Virus record (IMG/VR): IMGVR_UViG_3300032213_001758
Location: 1 to 32,839 of that record
Length of the DNA stretch: 32,839 nt
Source: a virus
Direction: 5' to 3' (one strand)
Below the pieces are notes generated by a model. It was not told the DNA's origin. It was given only the letters and a program-made list of their open reading frames with translations, and made no database searches. Both the position numbers and the translations under genes were made by a program. Positions 6,533 through 32,558 of the stretch are shown piece by piece (position 1 is the stretch's first letter; each line of letters opens with the position of its first letter).

Positions 6533-7855
6533 ATGGCAAATAGTGATAAGAATATTTTAATAACACCGAACATCGGTTCAAGCACTGGTGATCCCACTAT
6601 TACCTTTTCTGGCGCCAATGCCAGTGTAGGCCCACAAAATATATTTGCCAGAGTATATCCAACTAGTAACGGTACATTGAGTTTTGAAGGCAGTGCAGGG
6701 CAATTATTCTCTATAACAAACAACTTAACTGGCACTATTTTCAGCGTTAACGACGTTTCGGGTATGCCCAGTATCGAAGTACTGGACACTGGTATAGTTA
6801 AGATAGCACAGTATTCTGGCAACGTGCTCATGGGCGGCACTACCACAGACGGTGTCAGTAAATTACAAGTAACTGGTGCAGCCAACGTAAGTTCACTACG
6901 TATTGCAGGTTACGGACAAGTTATTAACAGTTCCGGAGTATGGACTGGTCCTAGTTCAGGATTAGTGGGACCACAAGGTCCACAAGGTCCAATTGGGCCG
7001 ATCGGTCCTATAGGAAACACAGGGCCACAAGGTCCACAAGGTCCAATTGGGCCAATTGGCCCAATTGGAAACCAAGGACCAGCAGGACCAATCGGTCCCA
7101 TAGGTAACACAGGGCCGCAAGGGCCGCAAGGTCCAATTGGTCCAATCGGTAATCAAGGCCCCGGAGGTCCTGCAGGTCCTGCAGGTCCTGCAGGTCCTGC
7201 TGGTCCGATTGGGCCAATTGGTAATACAGGACCACAGGGCCCACAGGGCCCAATTGGCCCAATTGGGCCAATTGGTAACACAGGACCACAAGGTCCCACA
7301 GGTCCTAGTACTTCGATCAATTCGACTGCTACAACTTCTGCCTCCACACATTATCCTGTGTTCGTTCTTGGAACAGGAGCGCAAACACCGTTTATACGAA
7401 CTACAGCAACAGCGTTTAGCTATGTCCCTAGTACCAATGTGCTTACAGTCACTGCAACAAATGCACGTTATGCTGACTTGGCCGAACGTTATTTGGCAGA
7501 TCGTAAATATGATCCAGGCACTGTTCTTCAGTTTGGTGGCGATAAAGAAGTTACCATTGCTGGAAAAGATATGACCCCTAAAGTTGCCGGAGTTGTAACG
7601 TCAAATCCTGCATATTTAATGAATGTATTCTTAGAAGGCGAAATGGTAGCAGATTTGGCACTGCAAGGCCGGGTGCCTACCAAAATTATAGGTCCTGTGG
7701 GCAAAGGTGATCTAATGGTTGCTGCTCCGGGTGGGTATGCAAGGTCTGAAGTTGACCCAAAGCCTGGAACAATTATCGGTAAAGCATTACAAGACTTTGC
7801 TGCTACACCAGAAAATCCTAGTTCGATAATAGAAGTTGTTGTTGGTAAACACTAA
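6533..7855 (+). CDS. Collagen-like tail fibre protein, 440 aa
   Basis: A complete fibre protein. The N-terminal region (1-145, starting [15 protein letters not shown]) is beta-rich and resembles the attachment part of T4-like marine phage fibres. A collagen array follows (146-258), with [12 protein letters not shown] and four GPA triplets in a row, then the GPTGPST-IN linker also seen twice in the first fibre gene. The C-terminal domain (about 300-440) begins with [20 protein letters not shown] and carries [19 protein letters not shown] and VGKGDLMV, a module I recall at the end of many cyanophage fibre proteins. It resembles the IMC / peptidase G2-type end domains of other phage appendages, but autoproteolysis cannot be judged here. 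The gene has its own late-promoter-like motif upstream. Confidence 0.88.
6968..7306 (+). repeat. Collagen-coding tandem array 3
   Basis: The array has 113 residues of unbroken Gly-X-Y. It contains a run of nearly identical 9-bp units (ggtcctgca) around 7166-7202, a likely slippage site. It ends in the same GPTGPST-IN linker as the other two arrays. Confidence 0.93.
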
Positions 7856-7923: not shown

Positions 7924-8979
7924 ATGACAACATTACATATTCTATCTAATCCCAGTGCCATTACGCATACACGCTATAGAATGGATCCGTTTAATGTAGC
8001 AGCATTAAAGTTTATCGAAAATATGAAACAACGCGGATGGAACATGATCCATTACGGACACGAATCTGCAGAAGTTGACTGCGATAATGAAGTCTGTGTA
8101 ACCAATGAAGAATTTGCTCCACCCAACGATGGCAATCTATTTCCCCACCGCAAAGATTTAGAAAATGCCTATAATCAAAGAGCCATTGACGCAGTAGATC
8201 GTCGAAAAAAACCTGGAGATATGTTGTTAGCATTTTACGGACTAGCCAACAAACCTGTAATGGATGCACACAGCGATTTAAAATTATTAGAACCCAGCAT
8301 AGGGTATCCCCCCGAAACAGTGTACACTCAATACAGAGCGTTTGTTAGTTATAGCCAAATGCATTACTATTATGGCCTGCATCGAATGTTATTAAAGCCC
8401 AGTTGGTATGATGCAGTGATTCCCAATGCATTTACTCCCAGTGAATTTGAGTTTAGAAAAGACAAAGAAGATTACTTTGTTTATTTAGGTCGAGTTAATT
8501 ATGATAAAGGAATCGATCTTTGTGTTCAAGTAACAGAAAGATTGGGCAAGAAACTTTATATTGCTGGCCCGGCCACAGATTTACAACATCTAGGTTATAG
8601 GACTATACCTAAACATGTTGAACTGGTTGGGTATGTAAACCCCGAACAGCGTAGTAAATTAATAGGTGGCGCACAGTGTCTAATGTGTCCCACTCACTAT
8701 ATTGAGCCATTTGGTAATATTGCTGCCGAAGCACAAATGTGCGGAACTCCAGTGTTGGCCACAGATTGGGGCGGCTACGTAGACAGCATAGTACACGGAG
8801 TAACTGGATTTCGATGCAAAGATTTTGGTTCATTTGTGCGAGCAGCCGAACAAGTACATGAATTAGATCCACAAAATTGTAGAAATTGGGCCATGCAAAA
8901 TTTCAGCGATCAAGTAGTTCATGATAAATTCGACGAATGGATTAATAAAATTAAAATTGATAACTTCTATCATGTATAA
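7924..8979 (+). CDS. GT4-family glycosyltransferase
   Basis: This 351-residue protein has the GT-B fold pattern of glycosyl transferase group 1 (GT4). The C-terminal nucleotide-sugar domain starts near residue 184 with YFVYLGRVNYDKGIDL and contains the E-x7-E motif (E261 and E269 in EPFGNIAAEAQMCGTPV), followed by WGGYVDSI. The N-terminal part (1-170) would hold the acceptor site. Family members move a sugar from a nucleotide donor to a sugar or protein acceptor, retaining the anomeric form. It is the first gene of a run of ten co-directed genes for sugar synthesis, transfer and oxidation. No Shine-Dalgarno is evident before the ATG. The acceptor is unknown; a virion glycoprotein or a host surface glycan is possible. 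Confidence 0.88.
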   Translation: MTTLHILSNPSAITHTRYRMDPFNVAALKFIENMKQRGWNMIHYGHESAEVDCDNEVCVTNEEFAPPNDGNLFPHRKDLENAYNQRAIDAVDRRKKPGDMLLAFYGLANKPVMDAHSDLKLLEPSIGYPPETVYTQYRAFVSYSQMHYYYGLHRMLLKPSWYDAVIPNAFTPSEFEFRKDKEDYFVYLGRVNYDKGIDLCVQVTERLGKKLYIAGPATDLQHLGYRTIPKHVELVGYVNPEQRSKLIGGAQCLMCPTHYIEPFGNIAAEAQMCGTPVLATDWGGYVDSIVHGVTGFRCKDFGSFVRAAEQVHELDPQNCRNWAMQNFSDQVVHDKFDEWINKIKIDNFYHV

Positions 8980-9382
8980 AATTTATAGTAAACTAGATCC
9001 TGCTAAACATCTTCACACAGTTTATCGACTCACTGATATTACAGCTCGTAACGAAGTTGCCGAAGAACATCAGTTTTTACAGTTGGCTACCTTACGCATG
9101 GACAAAGGTAAAACATTTCGTCCACATCAACATATCTGGAAACCTTCTCCTGTAAAAGAAATTATTGCACAAGAATCTTGGGTAGTGATTAAAGGAAGTG
9201 TTGAAGTTAGTTTTTACGATACAGACGGTGCGCTATTAGAAAAGCAAGTTATCAATGCAGGCGACTGTAGTATGACCTTTGAAGGAGGTCATACGTATTT
9301 GATATTAGAAGATGATACTGTAGTTTATGAATATAAAACAGGTCCGTATCAAGGTCAGGCACTGGATAAGGTGTTTCTATGA
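8972..9382 (+). CDS. Cupin-fold protein, possible sugar-modifying enzyme
   Basis: ATG 8972 overlaps the end of the glycosyltransferase by 8 bases; upstream starts in the same frame lie deep in that gene. The 136 residues contain a cupin core: RPHQH (H52, H54), a nearby Glu (E63), WVVIKGSVEVSFYD as cupin strand and turn, and GGHTYLI with a possible fourth ligand H107. The metal-ligand pattern looks intact. It resembles the small cupins of polysaccharide gene clusters (WbuC or ketoisomerase-like). Isomerase, epimerase or a regulatory role cannot be told apart from sequence alone. The end overlaps the next gene (ATGA). Confidence 0.75.
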   Translation: MYKIYSKLDPAKHLHTVYRLTDITARNEVAEEHQFLQLATLRMDKGKTFRPHQHIWKPSPVKEIIAQESWVVIKGSVEVSFYDTDGALLEKQVINAGDCSMTFEGGHTYLILEDDTVVYEYKTGPYQGQALDKVFL

Positions 9383-9906
9383 TACTAGGAGACGATGTTT
9401 ACATTAGTCCCAGCGCAGAAATACGCAGACCCGAACTATGTAAGATTGGTAATCATGTAGCCATAGATAGTTTTTTCTATTGTACTACTAATTTAGACAT
9501 CGGGGACTATGTACACATTAGCCCACACGTAGCAGTAATCGGCGGCAAAGAAACTGCACTGTATGTTGAAGATTTTTGTTTTTTAAGTGTTGGTTCTAAG
9601 TACATTTGCGGCAGTGAAACGTTTCACGGACAAGGATTAATCGGTCCATTGATTCCCAAAGAATATCAAGATGAACAACAGTTGTGGCCAATTACACTAA
9701 AAAGATTTAGCGGTGCATTGGCTAACAGTGTTATACTGCCCGGAGTTACTCTTGCTGAGGGATCTGTGTTAGGGGCCAATAGTTTGCTTAAAGAAGACAC
9801 TGAGCCCTGGACAGTGTATGCAGGCAATCCTGCCAAACCTATTCGTAAACGCAGTGAACACAAAGCATATGAGTATGCAGAAAAATTAGGATACAAATAC
9901 CGATGA
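9379..9906 (+). CDS. Left-handed beta-helix (hexapeptide repeat) acyltransferase
   Basis: This 175-residue protein shows isoleucine/valine-spaced hexapeptide repeats typical of the LbH fold (for example CKIGNHVAID, LDIGDYVHISPHVAVIGG, NSVILPGVTLAEGSVLGANS). It ends with the family signature TVYAGNPAKPIRKR. Members transfer an acetyl or other acyl group from CoA to sugars. The likely catalytic His is in an SPHVAV or ETFHGQ context. The gene overlaps both neighbours by 4 bases, next to a DegT-family gene, a pairing seen in clusters for N-acylated amino sugars. Substrate unknown. Confidence 0.85.
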   Translation: MILGDDVYISPSAEIRRPELCKIGNHVAIDSFFYCTTNLDIGDYVHISPHVAVIGGKETALYVEDFCFLSVGSKYICGSETFHGQGLIGPLIPKEYQDEQQLWPITLKRFSGALANSVILPGVTLAEGSVLGANSLLKEDTEPWTVYAGNPAKPIRKRSEHKAYEYAEKLGYKYR

Positions 9907-10592
9907 CTAAATTTAACAGTTGGCCTAGCGGCAAGTTACCAAAAGAGTTTCAGCGTCCTGAACTTGATGCAGTAAAACAACTAGGATATCACTGGGACGA
10001 TCCCAGAGATGTTGTAGGGATATTCGAACGCAAAGTAGCAGAATTTGCAGGTGCAAAGTATGGCGTTAGTGTAGATTGTTGTACTCATGGGGTGTTTCTA
10101 AGTTTGAAATATTTAAATGCACAAGGGCCAGTCGAAATACCTAAGCACACATATCAAAGTATTCCTATGCATATTAAACATGCTGGATGCTATCCTACTT
10201 TTAGAGATGAACAGTGGAGCGGTGCATATCAATTGAAGCCTTATCCAGTGTGGGATGCTGCTACTCGTTGGCGTAAAGGTATGTACCTCGGTGGTATGCA
10301 CGTAGTAAGTTTTCAAATTAAAAAACGTATTCCCATCGGCCGCGGCGGAATGATTCTCACAAATGATAAACAAGCATATGACTGGTTATGCAAAGCAAGA
10401 TATGATGGCAGAGATCTTGAAGTAAGTCAATGGGACGATGACGCAGACATATGTGGATGGCATATGTATATGACTCCCGAAGATGCAGCCCGTGGTATTA
10501 TCTTAATGGATCAAGTACCCGATGACACACCCGACTGTGGTAGTTGGGAAAGCTATGCAGATTTAAGTCAAAAGAAATTGTGGAAAGAATAA
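9903..10592 (+). CDS. Short DegT/DnrJ/EryC1-family aminotransferase-like protein
   Basis: The 229 residues match the large PLP-binding domain of sugar aminotransferases: SVDCCTHGVFLSLKYL for the phosphate-binding turn, EIPKHTYQS, VWDAATRW (D118, expected to pair with the pyridine nitrogen) and SFQIKKRIPIGRGGM, where K141 is the expected PLP lysine before GRGG. Full-length members have about 360-400 residues; here the C-terminal small domain is essentially missing, and no frameshifted remainder follows, as the next gene starts one base after the stop. It may be a natural short form or a reduced enzyme. With Gmd next to it, a GDP-4-amino-6-deoxy sugar (perosamine-like) is one possible product. 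Confidence 0.75.
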   Translation: MTKFNSWPSGKLPKEFQRPELDAVKQLGYHWDDPRDVVGIFERKVAEFAGAKYGVSVDCCTHGVFLSLKYLNAQGPVEIPKHTYQSIPMHIKHAGCYPTFRDEQWSGAYQLKPYPVWDAATRWRKGMYLGGMHVVSFQIKKRIPIGRGGMILTNDKQAYDWLCKARYDGRDLEVSQWDDDADICGWHMYMTPEDAARGIILMDQVPDDTPDCGSWESYADLSQKKLWKE

Positions 10593-10593
10593 G

Positions 10594-11565
10594 ATGAAAA
10601 AGAAAGCACTGATCACCGGCATTAACGGCCAAGATGGTAGTTATCTGTCAGAGTATTTGTTAAGTTTAGGATATGATGTGTATGGTATTGTTCGCCGGCA
10701 CAGTGTTCCCGAAGGGCAAAGCAGTAGACTAGAACATATTAACGATAAGATTACACGCATCTATGGCGACCTCACAGACGAAATGAGCATTGCCAGTGTA
10801 GTAAATCAAGTCAGACCTGATGAAATCTATAATCTGGGCGCCATGAGTCATGTGCGTATTAGTTTTGATATGCCAGCATTTACTATTAAAACAAATAGTT
10901 TAGGTGTGTTAAACATGTTAGAAGCTTACAGACAATTTTGTCCTGAAGCAAAGTTTTATCAAGCCAGTAGCAGTGAAATGTTTGGTAACAGTATAGATTC
11001 TGATGGAGTACAACGATTAACTACACCAATGACTCCGGTCAGTCCATACGGGTGCAGTAAAGTTATGGGGTATAACTTAACTCGTCATTATCGAGATGCT
11101 TACAAGTTACATGCTTGCAACGGAATTTTGTTTAATCATGAGAGCCCACGTCGAGGCACAAATTTTGTAACCAACAAAGTTGTTAAAACAGCAGTAGAAA
11201 TTAAACGAGGGTTAACAGATAAATTAGAACTTGGCAATTTGGACAGCAGTAGAGATTGGGGACACAGTTACGATTATGTTCGAGCCATGCATTTAATCAT
11301 CAACAGTGACACACCAAGAGATTGGGTAGTAGCCACAGGGCAAAGCCATACTGTACGTGACTTATGTAAATATGTATTTGACAGTTTGGATATGAACTAC
11401 GAAGATTATGTAGTGCAAAATCAAAAATTTTTACGACCCGAAGAATTAAAATTCCTTAAAGGGGATAGCGCACCTATTCGCAGTGAATTGGGGTGGAAAC
11501 CAGTTTATACTTTCGAAACAATGTTGGATGAAATGATTACACACTGGATAAAAGAAATAAAATGA
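10594..11565 (+). CDS. gmd: GDP-mannose 4,6-dehydratase
   Basis: This 323-residue short-chain dehydrogenase-like enzyme converts GDP-mannose to GDP-4-keto-6-deoxymannose, the precursor of GDP-fucose, GDP-rhamnose and GDP-perosamine. Visible features are the NAD(P)-binding TGINGQDGSYL (residues 8-18), RRHSVPEGQSSRLEH, the YNLGAMSHV loop, catalytic SSSEMFG with E128, the Y152-x3-K156 pair in SPYGCSK, and NHESPRRGTNFV as in true Gmd enzymes. Length is close to that of bacterial Gmd. No GDP-fucose synthase (GMER) is found in the window, so the keto-sugar must be finished by the DegT-like protein here, by the host, or by a gene outside the window. Confidence 0.95.
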   Translation: MKKKALITGINGQDGSYLSEYLLSLGYDVYGIVRRHSVPEGQSSRLEHINDKITRIYGDLTDEMSIASVVNQVRPDEIYNLGAMSHVRISFDMPAFTIKTNSLGVLNMLEAYRQFCPEAKFYQASSSEMFGNSIDSDGVQRLTTPMTPVSPYGCSKVMGYNLTRHYRDAYKLHACNGILFNHESPRRGTNFVTNKVVKTAVEIKRGLTDKLELGNLDSSRDWGHSYDYVRAMHLIINSDTPRDWVVATGQSHTVRDLCKYVFDSLDMNYEDYVVQNQKFLRPEELKFLKGDSAPIRSELGWKPVYTFETMLDEMITHWIKEIK

Positions 11566-12404
11566 ACAATCATGTATATGTAATGCCTGGTGGTGGCCCT
11601 TTCAGTCGATTCTTGCAATGTGGCATTATTCCACTGGCTGACGTAGAATTTGACAATGTGTTTTTAACACTAAGTCCTTTTGAAGAACATACCAACAATG
11701 ATGAATATCTCGAAGAAGCTGTAGGGCATATAGTAAGAAATAGAACAGCTATGCAAAGTTACGGGATAGAACGTCCCTATGACCATATCATGGGATACGT
11801 ACTAAATCAGACTACAGATAATACCTATGAGTACAAAGGTTTTTTGCCAATTGGTAAAATGTACACAAAAGATAATCCCATAGAAGACAGTAATAGATTG
11901 TCTGACTATAAGCGTGTGCTTAATAAGATTCATATTAATAATGAAATTACCACCAAAGTGGATAACTTATGTAAATTAGTTAACATTAATTCGCGCACTT
12001 TGGGTGTTCACGTCAGAATGACCACTATGGCAGTTCATACTAATTATAATCCAATTACGCATGAAGATTATTGTCGAACTATCGACAATCAGCTAGCCAC
12101 GGGTGATTGGGACGGTTTGTATGTAGCAACAGATAACGTTGAATCTTTAGTAAAGATGGAACAACGATACGGAAACATAATTCGTTACTATCCAAATTTA
12201 TGGAGATTGCCCACAGAACAAATCACAGAACGTTGGCAATGGTCCTGGGAATACGATACATTTTTTCATAAAAGATTTTGGCAAGAAAGTTTTATGGAAG
12301 CAATGACATTGGCTCGTTGCGGCGGCATGATATGCAGAGACAGTAACTTTAGTAATGCTGCTGTGGTGTTTAGTAATAGCTTGAAGAGGATAGTACGAGT
12401 TTAA
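11562..12404 (+). CDS. Probable fucosyltransferase-like protein (NodZ / GT23-like)
   Basis: The 280-residue frame overlaps gmd by 4 bases. It has LGVHVRMTTM (H150, R152), which resembles the HxR motif that binds GDP-fucose in GT11, GT23 and NodZ-type enzymes, then DGLYVATDN and a C-terminal FMEAMTLARCGGMICRDSNF, typical of these enzymes. The position directly after gmd supports use of a GDP-deoxy-sugar donor. The family assignment is by motif only; the acceptor is unknown. Confidence 0.65.
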   Translation: MNNHVYVMPGGGPFSRFLQCGIIPLADVEFDNVFLTLSPFEEHTNNDEYLEEAVGHIVRNRTAMQSYGIERPYDHIMGYVLNQTTDNTYEYKGFLPIGKMYTKDNPIEDSNRLSDYKRVLNKIHINNEITTKVDNLCKLVNINSRTLGVHVRMTTMAVHTNYNPITHEDYCRTIDNQLATGDWDGLYVATDNVESLVKMEQRYGNIIRYYPNLWRLPTEQITERWQWSWEYDTFFHKRFWQESFMEAMTLARCGGMICRDSNFSNAAVVFSNSLKRIVRV

Positions 12405-12405
12405 A

Positions 12406-13173
12406 ATGAATCATGCATTTTTTGTTACCTCAAGTATCGAGTTAGATCCTACTCGCAATTTTAAAGGAACAAAGAAACGCACGGTCTTTTCTACCAATGA
12501 AAGACTGGTTCAAACAATTAAAACTATAACCAATCTTCGAGAGAAAGATCCAATAGCACCTATTTACTTAATAGATTCGTCTGCAAGGACGTTTGATCAA
12601 TTAAATTGTATAGGCGTAAAGAATCTTCATTATATTAAACTACAAGAACTAAATCCTGCGGTAGCAGACATAGTAAGGACTCATTCGTCGAAATCATACT
12701 GCGAATGTTTAATGATACTGGAATTTTTTAAACATTATAAAAAAGAATTACAAAAATATAACTTTGTAACAAAGATATGCGCTCGTTACACACTGTCGGA
12801 TAATTACAATACAGATTTGTTTACACCCGAAAATATAGATAAGTTTTTTATGAAAAAAGAACTTATGTGGGACAATGAACATATTAATTTTTTAACAGAA
12901 GTACAATTGCCTCGGGATTTATTAGTTGACAATAAACTTTATGGATTTTATACTGTAGCACATGCCATGGGTAATCAAAAAATTGATCAGTACGAAGCAA
13001 TAATGGCAGCATCTGCACAAATGGCAACAGAACACGGCAAGTATTATCATCAAGACGTTGAATATACATTGCATCTATATTTGAGATTATTTGGCCTTCT
13101 TAACGATGTAATTATTGTCGATTGGACTGTAGACGGCCGCTGCGGTGTTACTGGGGATTGGGTGAGGTATTAA
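12406..13173 (+). CDS. Probable glycosyltransferase, unknown family
   Basis: The 255-residue protein starts one base after the previous stop. An N-terminal FFVTSSIELD strand, IAPIYLIDSS and the FVTKICARYTLSDNYN motif resemble a loose group of GT-A-like proteins in phage and bacterial surface-sugar clusters (K-x-GRY-type motif, here KICARY). A C-terminal HQDVEYTLHLYL fits an acceptor-side acidic motif. Assignment rests largely on this pattern and on the neighbours, a fucosyltransferase-like gene on each side. Confidence 0.5.
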   Translation: MNHAFFVTSSIELDPTRNFKGTKKRTVFSTNERLVQTIKTITNLREKDPIAPIYLIDSSARTFDQLNCIGVKNLHYIKLQELNPAVADIVRTHSSKSYCECLMILEFFKHYKKELQKYNFVTKICARYTLSDNYNTDLFTPENIDKFFMKKELMWDNEHINFLTEVQLPRDLLVDNKLYGFYTVAHAMGNQKIDQYEAIMAASAQMATEHGKYYHQDVEYTLHLYLRLFGLLNDVIIVDWTVDGRCGVTGDWVRY

Positions 13174-18309: not shown

Positions 18310-19683
18310 TTAATTGTCAGCACGTGGAGTAAGTGCCTTACTAAGACTTTGTCTAGTTGGCAGTGTTTGTCCTTCGTTATTGACATAAGTGGAATTGTCG
18401 TTGACAAAGATACTACGCTGAGTTTTATTGTCGGGCCCTGGGGTAAGATTAGTGCGAACACCATCTTCGATTTTAGTCCATCTTGCACCGTTATAACGGA
18501 ACAAACGATTGGGAACATAATCTGTTCTTAGTACATAGTCTCCGATGGTTGGGCTAGCTGGAAAACTTGTTCCGGCAGTAACAGGCCACCCGTTAGGGGG
18601 TATATCGTCGCCCCCAAGGTATGCTGGCACATTAGAGTCTGGAGTAGTTGGTTGAGTATTTGTAAAATCCAATGTTGAATCTACATATAAATTTGTTAAA
18701 TCTACCGTTTGCCCAGTGGGGTCACCCGGGCTACCATCGGGGTTTATGGGCTCAATATACAAGTCATTAATGTCAGTACCACTTCTTGGCACGTCGATTT
18801 CTGCTTGCTGGATAATTGCATCATTGATGGATATAAGTTTATCTAAAGTGCTCACATAGTTTCCAATTGGTGTATTATTGGCACTGCCAGGTACAAGTTG
18901 ATTAATAATATCTTTATATTCTTGACTGTCTACCAGCGGTGTAAGTTTTACTCTCCATAAATGTGGCCACCAAGTTTGGCTAAATCCTTCTGCTGCGAAA
19001 CTGGCATCTTGCACTACATAATATCTTTTTAACACAGCAGGTATATCTTCATTTAATGGATAATAATCTTTTTTATGCTGTAGTTCTAATACATCTCCGC
19101 TCATAATCTTGCGACCAAGAGATGCTACAGTGTCATTAAGATGAAATGTCATGTAAACAGTGTCTGCACTTAAAAAGATACCAAATTGCTTTAAATCAAA
19201 ATCGTTATCATTTACCGTGTAGACTCCACGTAAAGTGTACACTGACGTATCGTATTTTCGATCTCTATTTTCCAAAAAAAGCAAATCTTGTATGTTTAAT
19301 GCACTTTGATTTTGATAAACAGGTTGAGTAGCATCTTTCCAGTATACATTAAGTGGTTGTCCTGATGTTATAGCAGAAGTAACATTTGAACTTATAGTAA
19401 CAGTGTTGCTAGTTACGTTTGTTCCTGTTATAATTGTATTTGCTGCGATACCTATGCCGCTTACAGCTTGCCCAACTTCGAATGGTGCCACATTTCCAAA
19501 ATACAATGTTCTGCCAGAAGTAGTTGCATTTGCAGTAGGATACGCATTTGCCTGCACATTAGTGCCGATGTATTTGTGCAACAGTACACCAGTGCCACCA
19601 ATGGTAAATTCTTCTGATATTCTTTTATCAAAAAATTTGTAATCGTTTGTGTGGTTGTCGCGCCACATGCTAAGTCTAGGCAT
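18310..19683 (-). CDS. 14: Neck protein gp14 homologue (extended)
   Basis: This 457-residue protein begins MPRLSMWRDNHTNDYKFFDK and contains QDLLFLENRDRKYD, a DLKQFGIFLSADTVYMTFHL stretch, SGDVLELQHKKDYY and WWPHLWRVKLTPLVD, conserved in gp14 of T4-like marine phages. gp14 works with gp13 and gp15 at the head-tail joint. T4 gp14 has 256 residues. The surplus includes an inserted beta-rich module (about residues 55-110, with VGQAVSGIGIAANTIITG) and a C-terminal tail with RLFRYNGARWTKIEDGVRTN. A late-promoter-like motif and a GGAAT Shine-Dalgarno precede it on the minus strand. Confidence 0.82.
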   Translation of the reverse strand: MPRLSMWRDNHTNDYKFFDKRISEEFTIGGTGVLLHKYIGTNVQANAYPTANATTSGRTLYFGNVAPFEVGQAVSGIGIAANTIITGTNVTSNTVTISSNVTSAITSGQPLNVYWKDATQPVYQNQSALNIQDLLFLENRDRKYDTSVYTLRGVYTVNDNDFDLKQFGIFLSADTVYMTFHLNDTVASLGRKIMSGDVLELQHKKDYYPLNEDIPAVLKRYYVVQDASFAAEGFSQTWWPHLWRVKLTPLVDSQEYKDIINQLVPGSANNTPIGNYVSTLDKLISINDAIIQQAEIDVPRSGTDINDLYIEPINPDGSPGDPTGQTVDLTNLYVDSTLDFTNTQPTTPDSNVPAYLGGDDIPPNGWPVTAGTSFPASPTIGDYVLRTDYVPNRLFRYNGARWTKIEDGVRTNLTPGPDNKTQRSIFVNDNSTYVNNEGQTLPTRQSLSKALTPRADN

Positions 19684-27417: not shown

Positions 27418-27425
27418 GATAAATA
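27418..27425 (+). promoter_or_regulatory. Late-promoter-like motif GATAAATA, 5 bases before ATG 27431
   Basis: The motif directly follows the gp19 terminator. The expected start of transcription coincides with the ATG, so the transcript would be leaderless; there is no Shine-Dalgarno before the ATG. Confidence 0.5.
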
Positions 27426-29872: not shown

Positions 29873-30256
29873 ATGCAAGAACAACAGTATAATCCAGTTC
29901 AGCCTACTAATATAGGATCCAGTGGGACAACTAAAACAACAAAATATTTTAACAATTATTTTGCCGGCACAGTTGACATTGATCAAAATGTTAATGATTC
30001 TATATTAAGTTACTTTGAACAACAAACAGGTAACGCAGAAACAGCAAGAATATTAGTTCTTGCTGTAATCGAAACGGCAAAAGTTCAACGAGAAAATCCT
30101 ATAGACGTCTTAAATCAGTTTCAAAAAATGCCTGCAGGAGAATTAAATGCGTTTATGGCATTATATCTTAATACTTCAAGAGTTAATACTAGCTTCTTAG
30201 GAGTAAAAACTGTTCCTAAATCTAATCAGTATGTGACGAGAACTATAATAACATGA
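29873..30256 (+). CDS. Conserved T4-like marine phage protein (127 aa)
   Basis: The N-terminal tail is disordered (QEQQYNPVQPTNIGSSG). A helical domain follows with VNDSILSYFEQQTGNAETAR, VLNQFQKMPAGELNAFM and a C-terminal LNTSRVNTSFLGVK. I recall this short protein from cyanophage structural regions; its function is unknown. The stop overlaps the ATG of gp4 (ATGA), so it is translated with the head-completion gene and is probably a virion or assembly factor. Confidence 0.75.
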   Translation: MQEQQYNPVQPTNIGSSGTTKTTKYFNNYFAGTVDIDQNVNDSILSYFEQQTGNAETARILVLAVIETAKVQRENPIDVLNQFQKMPAGELNAFMALYLNTSRVNTSFLGVKTVPKSNQYVTRTIIT

Positions 30257-30687
30257 GCAAATACAGTCAAGGCAAGTACTCTATAAAAAATCCTGACAAG
30301 TATATAGGAAAAAGAGACCCAACTTATAGGTCTAGTTGGGAATTTGCTTTTATGAATTTCTGTGATAATAACCCCGCAGTGGTGCAATGGGCCAGCGAAG
30401 CAATACATGTAAATTATAGAAATCCGTTTACAAATAAAAATACAATTTATGTGCCTGATTTTTTAATCATTTATATTGATAAAAATGGTAAACGTCACGG
30501 GGAAGTAATTGAAGTAAAGCCTACAAAAGAAACCACTATGGAAGCAGCCAGAAGTGTAAGGGACAAAGCAGCAGTGGCTCTTAACATGTACAAATGGGAA
30601 GCTGCAAGAAAGTTTTGTGCAGCTCAAGGCCTTACTTTTAGAGTTGTCAACGAAACCGATATTTTTGCTGGTACCAAAAAGCGGTAA
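30253..30687 (+). CDS. 4: Head completion nuclease gp4
   Basis: The 144 residues match T4 gp4 (also called gp50/gp65, about 150 residues), needed to finish DNA-filled heads. It has a TnsA-like PD-(D/E)XK pattern: SSWEFAFMNFCD with E30, YVPDFLIIYID with D69, and EVIEVKP with E87 and K89. This suggests it trims or nicks the packaged DNA end. The start lies in an ATGA overlap. The stop codon is itself part of a TAAATA motif that would serve the next, interrupted gene. Confidence 0.88.
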   Translation: MSKYSQGKYSIKNPDKYIGKRDPTYRSSWEFAFMNFCDNNPAVVQWASEAIHVNYRNPFTNKNTIYVPDFLIIYIDKNGKRHGEVIEVKPTKETTMEAARSVRDKAAVALNMYKWEAARKFCAAQGLTFRVVNETDIFAGTKKR

Positions 30688-30690
30688 ATA
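30683..30690 (+). promoter_or_regulatory. Late-promoter-like motif GGTAAATA before the orphan start
   Basis: GGTAAATA overlaps the gp4 stop and lies 5 bases before the ATG of the orphan MTKKLE fragment, the same spacing as the motifs before ATG 27431 and ATG 30731. Confidence 0.4.
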
Positions 30691-30695
30691 CCGTT

Positions 30696-30719
30696 ATGAC
30701 GAAGAAACTCGAAGTTTGA
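30696..30719 (+). pseudogene. Orphan 5' fragment (MTKKLEV-stop) of the gene now at 31392
   Basis: ATG-ACG-AAG-AAA-CTC-GAA encodes MTKKLE and then runs into a stop after one more codon. The reading frame after the homing endonuclease gene restarts with (ATT)-TKRLEELF. The two short stretches encode nearly the same peptide with mostly synonymous differences, so this looks like the original start of that gene, cut off by the endonuclease insertion. Confidence 0.6.
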
Positions 30720-30725
30720 TAAATA
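30718..30725 (+). promoter_or_regulatory. Late-promoter-like motif GATAAATA for the homing endonuclease
   Basis: The motif lies 5 bases before ATG 30731. No Shine-Dalgarno is visible, so the transcript would be leaderless if this motif is used. Confidence 0.4.
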
Positions 30726-30730
30726 ACTAT

Positions 30731-31390
30731 ATGTTCATATCAAACAAATATACTACATGGTATTATAGTATTATTAATAATGCTAAAACAAGAATCTTAG
30801 CAGTAGATGTATATACAGAAGTACATCATATAGTGCCGAAGAGTTTAGGCGGCAACAACTCAAAAAGCAATTTAGTTACGTTAACGGCTAAAGAACATTT
30901 TGTTTGTCACACTTTGTTGGTCAAAATGGTCCCCCAAGAATTGAAGAAAAAAATGGTATACGCTTTTTGGAGAATGGCCAATAGTGTTAGTAAAAGATAC
31001 AAGCCAACCGCTAAAATATACGAAATAGCACGTAAAGAATTTATTGAAGCACAACTAGGTCGCCCTAACTATTTAAAGTTTCAAAAACCTGAAGCCAGAC
31101 AACGAATAAGTACTTCAATGAAGAGAGTATTGTCTGACCTAAGCGCAGAAGAAAAATTTCAACGAATGAAAAATTCGTGCTCGTCTCCGGAGAGTTGGAC
31201 GGAAGAACGTAAAAATAAAATTAGTAAAGCGTTAACGGGTAAATTTGTATCTGTTAGCACACGACAAAAAATGTCCGAAGCAAAAAGCAATATGTCTACT
31301 GAACAAAAATTAAAATGTGGTAATTATAATCGCGGAAAAACGTGGAAATTAGTCGACGGCAAACGTGTATGGTCAACAAAGGAGAATTAA
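30731..31390 (+). CDS. HNH homing endonuclease with NUMOD-like repeats (free-standing)
   Basis: ATG 30731 is chosen because upstream in-frame codons overlap gp4 and the orphan fragment. The 219 residues hold an HNH core near residues 30-65 (VHHIVPKSLGGNNSKSNLVT, then LTAKEHFVCH). DNA-binding NUMOD3-like repeats follow (ARQRISTSMK, RKNKISKALTGK, TRQKMSEAKS), and the end GKTWKLVDGKRVWS is common in phage homing enzymes. Such enzymes cut alleles lacking the gene so that repair copies it in. Only about 12 bases separate the orphan fragment from this ATG and one base separates its stop from the next start, so there is no room for a group I intron core. It is inserted exactly at the start of the next gene. 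Confidence 0.88.
   Translation: MFISNKYTTWYYSIINNAKTRILAVDVYTEVHHIVPKSLGGNNSKSNLVTLTAKEHFVCHTLLVKMVPQELKKKMVYAFWRMANSVSKRYKPTAKIYEIARKEFIEAQLGRPNYLKFQKPEARQRISTSMKRVLSDLSAEEKFQRMKNSCSSPESWTEERKNKISKALTGKFVSVSTRQKMSEAKSNMSTEQKLKCGNYNRGKTWKLVDGKRVWSTKEN
31378..31384 (+). promoter_or_regulatory. Shine-Dalgarno AAAGGAG that decides the ATT start at 31392
   Basis: AAAGGAG lies in the last codons of the homing endonuclease, 7 bases before ATT 31392. This is ideal spacing for that codon and too close for the ATT at 31386. No ATG or TTG is available in this frame nearby; the only GTG (31365) has no such site. Confidence 0.65.
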
Positions 31391-31391
31391 A

Positions 31392-31886
31392 ATTACTAAA
31401 CGTCTAGAAGAACTTTTTAATTTGCCAGACAACATTCCTAAAGATTTAACTCAAGAACAAGCCACTGCGGCACTGGAAGAACAAAAATCTATGTTCGCAG
31501 ACATAGACAATGCCATAGACAAAATCGATCAAGCCTTGCCTAAGGTAAAAGGGCTTGACGCCAGCGATAAAGAAATGGACGAACTAGCTGACTTGGCTAA
31601 AAATCGTTTTAATGATCTAATGGATTTGGGAATGAACATGGAAGCCAGATTTAGTGGACAAGTCTTTCAGACTGCAGGGGTATTGTTAGGCCATGCAATT
31701 ACAGCTAAACAAGCTAAGTTAGATAAAAAATTAAGAATGGTGGATCTACAGTTAAAGAAAATGAGATTAGATCATCAACTTAAACAAGATGGTGTTGGTG
31801 CAGGGAATGATGCTATTGACGGTCAGGGTATTTTGCTAGATAGAAATGCACTGTTAGCACAAATATTAAACAAACCCAAGCAATAA
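31392..31886 (+). CDS. Possible small terminase subunit (gp16-like), apparent ATT start
   Basis: The body reads TKRLEELFNLPDNIPKDL, a helical DNAIDKIDQALPKVKGLD segment and DELADLAKNRFNDLMDLGMN. Then come FQTAGVLLGHAITAKQAKLD and KKLRMVDLQLKKMRLDHQLK, ending AQILNKPKQ. The length (164 aa) and central helical hairpin resemble T4 gp16 (164 aa), the DNA-recognising packaging subunit, but the match is loose and another conserved structural protein is possible. Start: ATT 31392 sits 7 bases after a strong Shine-Dalgarno and puts TKRLEE where the orphan fragment has MTKKLE. GTG 31365, inside the endonuclease gene, is the alternative. Confidence 0.6.
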   Translation: MTKRLEELFNLPDNIPKDLTQEQATAALEEQKSMFADIDNAIDKIDQALPKVKGLDASDKEMDELADLAKNRFNDLMDLGMNMEARFSGQVFQTAGVLLGHAITAKQAKLDKKLRMVDLQLKKMRLDHQLKQDGVGAGNDAIDGQGILLDRNALLAQILNKPKQ

Positions 31887-31898
31887 TTACCAAAATTT

Positions 31899-31906
31899 AA
31901 TAAATA
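31899..31906 (+). promoter_or_regulatory. Late-promoter-like motif AATAAATA
   Basis: The motif lies in the 39-base gap before ATG 31926 and ends 19 bases upstream of it, with AGGA at 31916-31919 as Shine-Dalgarno. The flank (TAAATATCGT) repeats that of the motif at 7899. Confidence 0.5.
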
Positions 31907-31925
31907 TCGTATATTAGGAATGAAT

Positions 31926-32558
31926 ATGAAACCATTTAAAGACTATCTAACTGAAAGTCATAAAACATATGATTTTAGAATTAGGTTAGCCTGCGAACTG
32001 CCAGACGATCTAATCTCCAAAATTAAAACTGTATTGGAAGCTTACAAATTAGATTCTATTAGTAAACCAAAAAGATTACCGATTCAAGAAACTCCTGAAT
32101 TTCCCAATATGGGACCTGTTGAAGTGAATATTATGGAGGCCAGTTTTCATTATCCTTGTACTGACGAACAAGTACGGTTACTGATTGCAGAGCGTGCAGG
32201 AATCAACTTATCATGTATTAAAGTTAACTCTAAAAATAGTCCATATGAAGCAATCTTAGATGGCACAGAAGTCAGCAATCTGGGAGGCAAGCCTGGGGAA
32301 TCTGTATTATTACAAGATAATATGGAAAGAGAGCGTCCTGGAAAAGGCGGAGAAACTTTAGTGGGCAGTGAACGAATTCCTAATTTAATTAAAGAATTAG
32401 AAGAAACTCGTAAGTACGAGTACCCTGAAGTTGCCGGAGGCAAATCGCCAGCAGCAAAAACAACCAACGAATTACCGCAAGGCAGTGCAAGTCCGATCGG
32501 TACTCATAAAAATAAAATAATCAACCCACGTGGTATGAAAGCAGGAAACGGAAAATAA
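31926..32558 (+). CDS. Conserved late protein (210 aa), unknown; MKPFKDYLTES start
   Basis: ATG 31926 is preferred over ATG 31920 because AGGA (31916-31919) is correctly spaced only for the second. The N-terminus MKPFKDYLTES resembles the start of many T4-like marine phage head and core proteins. Then come a compact alpha/beta part (YDFRIRLACELPDDLISKIK, PVEVNIMEASFHYPCTDEQV, LLIAERAGINLSCIKV) and a polar, probably disordered C-terminal third (KSPAAKTTNELPQGSAS). No function is recognised. Position after packaging genes and its late-type promoter suggest a head or scaffold role. Confidence 0.75.
   Translation: MKPFKDYLTESHKTYDFRIRLACELPDDLISKIKTVLEAYKLDSISKPKRLPIQETPEFPNMGPVEVNIMEASFHYPCTDEQVRLLIAERAGINLSCIKVNSKNSPYEAILDGTEVSNLGGKPGESVLLQDNMERERPGKGGETLVGSERIPNLIKELEETRKYEYPEVAGGKSPAAKTTNELPQGSASPIGTHKNKIINPRGMKAGNGK

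Follow-up and report, generated by a model that had tools for sequence, protein, structure and literature searches.

A candidate natural home-and-rescue element in T4-like phages: a homing endonuclease gene that strands the start of a virion gene and appears to supply an AUU start

How can a phage gene still be expressed when a homing endonuclease gene lies between its original start codon and the remainder of its coding sequence? This question is raised by a stretch of 32,839 nucleotides (IMG/VR record IMGVR_UViG_3300032213_001758; hereafter the window, meaning the whole stretch analysed), the source of which is a T4-like myovirus. All features of the locus lie on the plus strand. Its left anchor is a gp4-like head closure or head completion gene (30253–30687; phrog_218 head closure, E = 1e-39; PF08722, TnsA-like nuclease fold, E = 7e-21), which is separated by TAAATACCGTT from an orphan start, ATG ACG AAG AAA CTC GAA GTT TGA (30696–30719), encoding MTKKLEV followed by a stop. 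A TAAATA box (30685–30690) located 5 nt upstream of the orphan ATG is probably the resident late promoter of the gene further downstream. The orphan is followed by GATAAATA-ACTAT and then by an HNH homing endonuclease gene (30731–31390; 219 aa, TAA stop), and a single base separates the end of this gene from ATT ACT AAA CGT CTA GAA (31392–31409). This ATT is in frame with a virion-region gene of 164 codons (31392–31886), in which the next codon is GAA, and a Shine-Dalgarno (SD) sequence, AAAGGAG (31378–31384), lies within the endonuclease gene such that its GGAG is 7 nt upstream of the ATT. The orphan and the second copy differ at 7 of 18 bases, including five of the six third positions. These elements had been noted in a preliminary description of the window, and all of its sequence statements (the orphan MTKKLE, the HNH gene, the ATT copy after one base, and AAAGGAG 7 bases upstream) were correct.

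The downstream protein belongs to phrog_16202 and weakly matches an internal head protein (phrog_2497); its AlphaFold model is helical with low confidence (pLDDT 61). The order of the gp4-like gene and the downstream gene is conserved as far as PA5oct and RaK2, as well as in Phosso with one ORF between them. The HNH protein combines a catalytic HNH motif above the cut-off (PF01844, E = 2e-5; phrog_655, E = 8e-43) with a weak DNA-binding tail motif, NUMOD3, whose match (E = 3e-3) is below the Pfam cut-off, and its relatives are annotated as MobE or MobD. Stop codons part the ORFs, indicating that the endonuclease gene is free-standing and lies in neither an intron nor an intein. An intron at the insertion site was ruled out, as no Rfam match at E ≤ 1 was obtained over positions 30200–32000. 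The predicted RNA structure around the SD sequence and the AUU was unremarkable (z = 0.6 and 0.5).

We searched IMG/VR with the gp4 query and obtained 80 loci; all loci compared here (designated L and a number) are metagenomic contigs. In close endonuclease-free relatives, whose gp4 is 97–99% identical, the region reads TAAATACCGTT-ATGACGAAGAAACTCGAA-GAACTTTTTAAT, and the downstream gene begins with an unbroken MTKKLEELFN. Specifically, in the six closest such loci (L002, L003, L006, L007, L009 and L010), TAAATACCGTT comes after the gp4 stop and precedes ATG ACG AAR AAA CTY GAA, which is joined straight to the gene remainder; in L002, the empty junction is ATGACGAAGAAACTCGAAGAACTTTTTAATTTG, in which the 18 bases of the orphan are fused directly to the downstream gene. 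All 18 bases of the orphan agree with L002, as against 11 of 18 for the replacement copy, which encodes nearly the same peptide. We therefore conclude that the resident gene was interrupted behind codon 6 and that a new segment took the place of its first codons, in accordance with the earlier suggestions that the endonuclease had separated the gene from its start and that the N-terminus is restored by a second, differing version of these codons. The alignment check proposed at that time likewise gave the expected answer, in that the gene in endonuclease-free relatives does begin with MTKKLE. A chance repeat of the start codons was rejected because these relatives join the orphan's 18 bases to the downstream gene. 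Compared with the empty alleles of L002, L006 and L010, the inserted unit spans 30714–31409 and consists of GTTTGATAAATAACTAT, the HNH gene, an A and replacement codons 1–6.

The same unit is present in L004. Its HNH DNA is identical to that of the window at 653 of 661 positions (98.8%), and all 46 bases upstream of the HNH gene, in the orphan region, are identical, whereas most flanking bins are 82–94% identical. The rescue segment of L004 is identical to that of the window for 30 bases and then continues as an L010-like allele. Moreover, the gp4 proteins of L004 and L002 are identical, yet L004 is occupied with an ATT start and L002 is empty with an ATG start. The near-identical unit amid diverged flanks thus indicates that the unit moves between genomes. 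The unit also carries its own TAAATA box (30720–30725), 5 nt upstream of the HNH start codon and conserved in L089 and L004. The insertion codon is the same in the window, L089 and L084, and the orphan codons are typical of the local relatives. The element carries a second, diverged version of part of the gene, and since the insertion lies inside the coding sequence of the resident gene, that gene would be lost without a replacement start. An exact scan of the fetched loci for 5-aa repeats indicating other start-duplicating endonuclease genes singled out L089 alone.

To our knowledge, an AUU start has been described in very few bacterial genes, and this codon is disregarded by gene callers. 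We scanned IMG/VR for GGAG followed by 7 bases, ATA, ATC or ATT and codons loosely matching TK-(K/R)-L. All 52 matching stretches contained the downstream gene, and all 52 carried ATT; with ATG in the same pattern, four stretches matched, only one of which was the downstream gene (L217). The ATT start was found in 35 unique loci. In 22 of these, an in-frame stop lies just upstream and no ATG, GTG or TTG precedes the ATT (for example, TAG ATA AGG AGA CTC AAA ATT in L089), and AUU is therefore the only sensible start there. An SD sequence is present in all 35 unique ATT relatives, a figure partly selected by the search pattern, and Thr2 of the downstream protein is invariant in the alignment. 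On this comparative sequence evidence, the AUU start appears to be real and recurrent and to be kept even after decay of the endonuclease, and initiation at AUU would presumably insert fMet. The forced AUU and its recurrence among relatives also bear out the proposal of a rare ATT start with a ribosome binding site inside the endonuclease gene. A scan of GTDB genomes for the SD-ATT junction yielded none, and thus no cultured host was found.

Two other ways of joining the frames were weighed against these data. An in-frame GTG without an SD sequence (31365–31367) is present in the window, L004 and L020 and would, as the true start, add the N-terminal extension MYGQQRRIK; because of this codon, the case for an AUU start in the window itself rests on its relatives. 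The bases of the GTG are, however, constrained by the endonuclease motif GKRVW, and the codon is missing from most other occupied loci, including L082, L084, L089 and L134; together with the 22 loci devoid of any canonical start, this makes the GTG a very improbable start. Alternatively, the proximity of the two frames, which in most loci come within a few bases of each other, might reflect a fusion of the endonuclease and the downstream protein by frameshifting at the endonuclease stop. We regard such a fusion as scarcely credible, given that the frame offset and overlap differ among loci (stop at –15, –1, +8 or +16 relative to the ATT), that the AUU persists where any endonuclease is missing, and that the SD spacing fits the AUU.

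The ATT start was found behind intact endonucleases of both the HNH and GIY-YIG types with different C-terminal domains, which end in NUMOD-type GKRVWxDKETQNY or KEN sequences, or in zinc-finger-like sequences (L246, L190). It was also found behind decayed relics, which lie between the orphan start and the ATT and leave scars in which an orphan start is fused to an endonuclease tail. In L183, the orphan ATGACCAAAC is fused to codons for the tail NGKRVWVDKETQ, and L199 is similar; L169 and L193 contain GIY-YIG genes with internal deletions, with the intact gene of L187 standing beside L193. In 10 further unique loci, the ATT start occurs without a visible endonuclease, in some cases with its own TAAATA box 20–28 nt upstream. 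Endonuclease genes are also found with an ATG start of the downstream gene (L217, L093, L238, L261) or a GTG start (L091). On the gp4 tree, which is based on 145 columns and is poorly resolved, the start codon of the downstream gene changes approximately 25 times, and the combined ATT and endonuclease state requires 17 changes, being sporadic relative to the empty alleles. As separate observations, the decayed tail of a zinc-finger-type endonuclease occupies 220 bp of L008 (4433–4652), where it separates gp4 from an ATG-type start, and the junction of gp4 and the downstream gene carries other cargo in L041, L043, L322, L332, L340 and L047–L049, such as ORFs that resemble, by eye, a TRAP-transporter binding protein and a radical SAM protein.

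We further compared the start classes of the downstream gene across 210 unique loci. Among the 174 unique ATG alleles, 169 lack an SD sequence and 146 have TAAATA 3–9 nt (mostly 4–5 nt) upstream of the ATG, whereas all 35 ATT alleles have an SD sequence and none has TAAATA at this position. Among loci sampled through gp4 alone, an SD sequence accompanied ATT in 7 of 7 cases and other starts in 4 of 170 (Fisher's test, P = 3e-10, although related loci are not independent). The TAAATA box resembles, as a sequence, the late promoters of T4 (TATAAATA) and cyanophage S-PM2 (NATAAATA) (PMC2984593). In other genes of the fetched loci, the distance from TAAATA to ATG peaks at 4–5 and 17–20 nt, and the short-distance class suggests leaderless late mRNAs without an SD sequence. 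Translation of the ATG alleles would accordingly begin at the 5' terminus of a late transcript or close to it, and an insertion would part the gene from its promoter. The endonuclease genes themselves appear in the same setting, as 18 of 22 at the insertion site have TAAATA 4–9 nt upstream of their own ATG; the GIY-YIG types obtain it by in-frame fusion to the orphan start (MTQKLS-LYKKTH in L020, MTRKF-YLYKKTH in L192). Beyond what the preliminary description contained, the sequences thus point to the fusion of GIY-YIG genes to the orphan ATG, a probable displacement of the late promoter and an AUU that outlives the endonuclease. TAAATA boxes occur in the window at 27420, 30685 and 30720, and in relatives, 4–5 or 17–20 nt upstream of starts.

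The fetched loci were also scanned for SD-led ORFs without a canonical start. A second virion gene (phrog_11591; window 18310–19683, minus strand) starts with ATG in the window and, in L094, L142 and L209, with an ATT that follows an endonuclease gene. In a scan of this gene allowing ATG or ATT, 120 of the 121 matches listed had ATT, of which at least 79 were unique, with a strong SD sequence; among the matches listed, 15 unique loci had an endonuclease or relic upstream, and those without an endonuclease mostly had TAAATA 17–32 bases upstream. The ATT relatives of this gene include L209, L094, L142 and L381–L498. In a third gene, encoding a tail sheath stabilizer, ATT was found in L490 (5007) and ATC in L401 (4031) and L479 (minus strand, index 1798), with AAGGAG upstream and an in-frame stop 5–7 codons upstream. 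AUU was uncommon in loci whose sampling involved no start-codon pattern, with 3 AUU to 155 ATG among AGGAG-led ORFs. Since AUU is found in other virion genes, in one of them mostly without endonucleases, it is an accepted start in this phage group, one that the endonuclease unit may have captured, and its occurrence without a trace of an endonuclease in both the downstream gene and the second virion gene means that it may predate the element. An origin of the AUU from endonucleases alone was dropped in view of the AUU and AUC starts in other virion genes and of the endonuclease-free loci.

We propose, with a probability of roughly 0.8, that the unit is a natural home-and-rescue element that hijacks or displaces the late promoter and AUG of the resident gene while providing a foreign SD-led AUU start. 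A free-standing endonuclease gene would insert after codon 6 of the gene downstream of gp4, stranding the resident late promoter, the AUG and six codons (MTKKLE) upstream. At its other end, the element would carry a rescue module comprising an SD sequence in the last codons of the endonuclease gene, an AUU and foreign-coded codons 2–6, which would join the gene remainder so that (f)Met-Thr-Lys-Arg-Leu-Glu once more forms the N-terminus. Translation of the downstream gene would then take place on the endonuclease mRNA, with SD-directed initiation at the AUU. Homing would spread the endonuclease and the AUU start jointly, and after later decay of the endonuclease the AUU start would remain because the original start is gone. 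At the level of sequence, the split, the replacement, the forced AUU, its recurrence and the relics are established. Homing is the probable route of spread, and the late promoter is presumably in use. The differences in the rescue copy may prevent self-cleavage, with which the 7 differences in 18 bases are compatible. A point against the proposal is that free-standing endonucleases of phages frequently cleave at a great distance from where they are inserted (PMC2988022). The replacement copy may represent the allele of a donor phage rather than a recoded sequence, because AUU-type starts exist without endonucleases and also in two other virion genes.

It is possible, though we put it somewhat below an even chance, that the AUU-type 5' end is a native alternative start and that the upstream endonuclease merely carries the donor allele by co-conversion, with neither recoding nor adaptation for rescue. 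The endonuclease-free AUU-type alleles (L178, L191, L173, L302 and L303, some with their own TAAATA) and the SD-led AUU or AUC starts of the second and third virion genes are in agreement with a native start. However, every endonuclease-free relative in the clade of the window has ATG without an SD sequence, and the insertion lies inside the resident gene at a shared codon. This alternative mainly concerns the origin of the rescue module and overlaps with the home-and-rescue explanation. Also compatible with that explanation, and in our judgement slightly less likely than not, is the idea that the AUU is kept since the pairing of a strong SD sequence with a weak start holds the virion protein at a low dose that may respond to IF3. 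The contrasting SD content of the ATG and ATT alleles, the same pairing of strong SD and AUU in other virion genes, and the survival of an AUU one step from AUG beyond endonuclease loss all favor dose setting, although the search pattern itself partly accounts for the SD association and alleles with both SD and ATG occur (L309, L310, L039 and L217). A precedent is infC, which encodes IF3 and whose AUU start serves IF3 autocontrol (PMC5472188); it resembles the phage case in having an AUU initiation codon in a bacterial-type gene, whereas the phage genes are virion genes with no known IF3 feedback and, in the downstream gene, are linked to mobile endonucleases. More tentatively, strong-SD-AUU may be a standing class of dose-setting or regulating starts in several virion genes of a large phage group, which endonucleases exploit as a portable, cleavage-resistant rescue; the outcome would be a natural home-and-rescue drive by which the start of the target gene is permanently rewritten.

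Hybrid genes with mobile ORFs (mORFs) in fungal mitochondria, such as Allomyces atp6 and Glomus atp6, atp9, cox2 and nad3 (PMC3630166), are similar in that an endonuclease ORF lies within an essential gene and the element brings along a diverged copy of the severed part that encodes an equivalent protein sequence; this copy has, for example, 64% nucleotide identity, and the displaced native copy matches relatives. In those genes, the C-terminus is replaced by in-frame fusion, whereas in the phage unit the N-terminus and the start are replaced, and the element must therefore supply ribosome binding and a start codon, here an AUU. Gene 39/60 of T4 is another phage gene invaded by an endonuclease, and its expression is repaired by unusual translation in the form of ribosome bypassing (PMC5009743); in Aeh1, the free-standing mobE invades nrdA and yields split proteins (PMC2988022). 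In contrast to both, the phage unit involves neither a ribosome hop nor a split protein, and the replacement start would restore an intact protein. A review of T4 endonucleases describes gene-splitting insertions and the risk of displaced promoters, and a term search of it returned no start replacement (PMC2988022). The synthetic home-and-rescue drive HomeR (PMC7968924) likewise places a homing element with a re-coded rescue segment in an essential gene; the phage unit is natural, acts at the 5' end and includes the translation start, and its rescue immunity is putative.

If correct, the proposed home-and-rescue element would be a natural 5'-end counterpart, in dsDNA phages, of homing drives that carry a rescue, and stages with an intact, a decayed and no endonuclease can all be seen. 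Two questions become testable: what leads a virus to retain an AUU when a single mutation would yield AUG, and whether a homing element is shielded from its own nuclease by recoding. In the parts of the literature covered, no AUU start of a phage gene was found; here, AUU starts recur in dozens of phages, and because gene callers ignore them, the virion genes of these phages are probably misannotated. Elsewhere in the window, long collagen-like GPQGP repeats are present in putative tail fibre genes (1–2674 and 6533–7855), and a block of genes that by eye resemble those for glycosyltransferases, acetyltransferases, aminotransferases and nucleotide-sugar dehydratases lies in the phage structural region (7924–13173).
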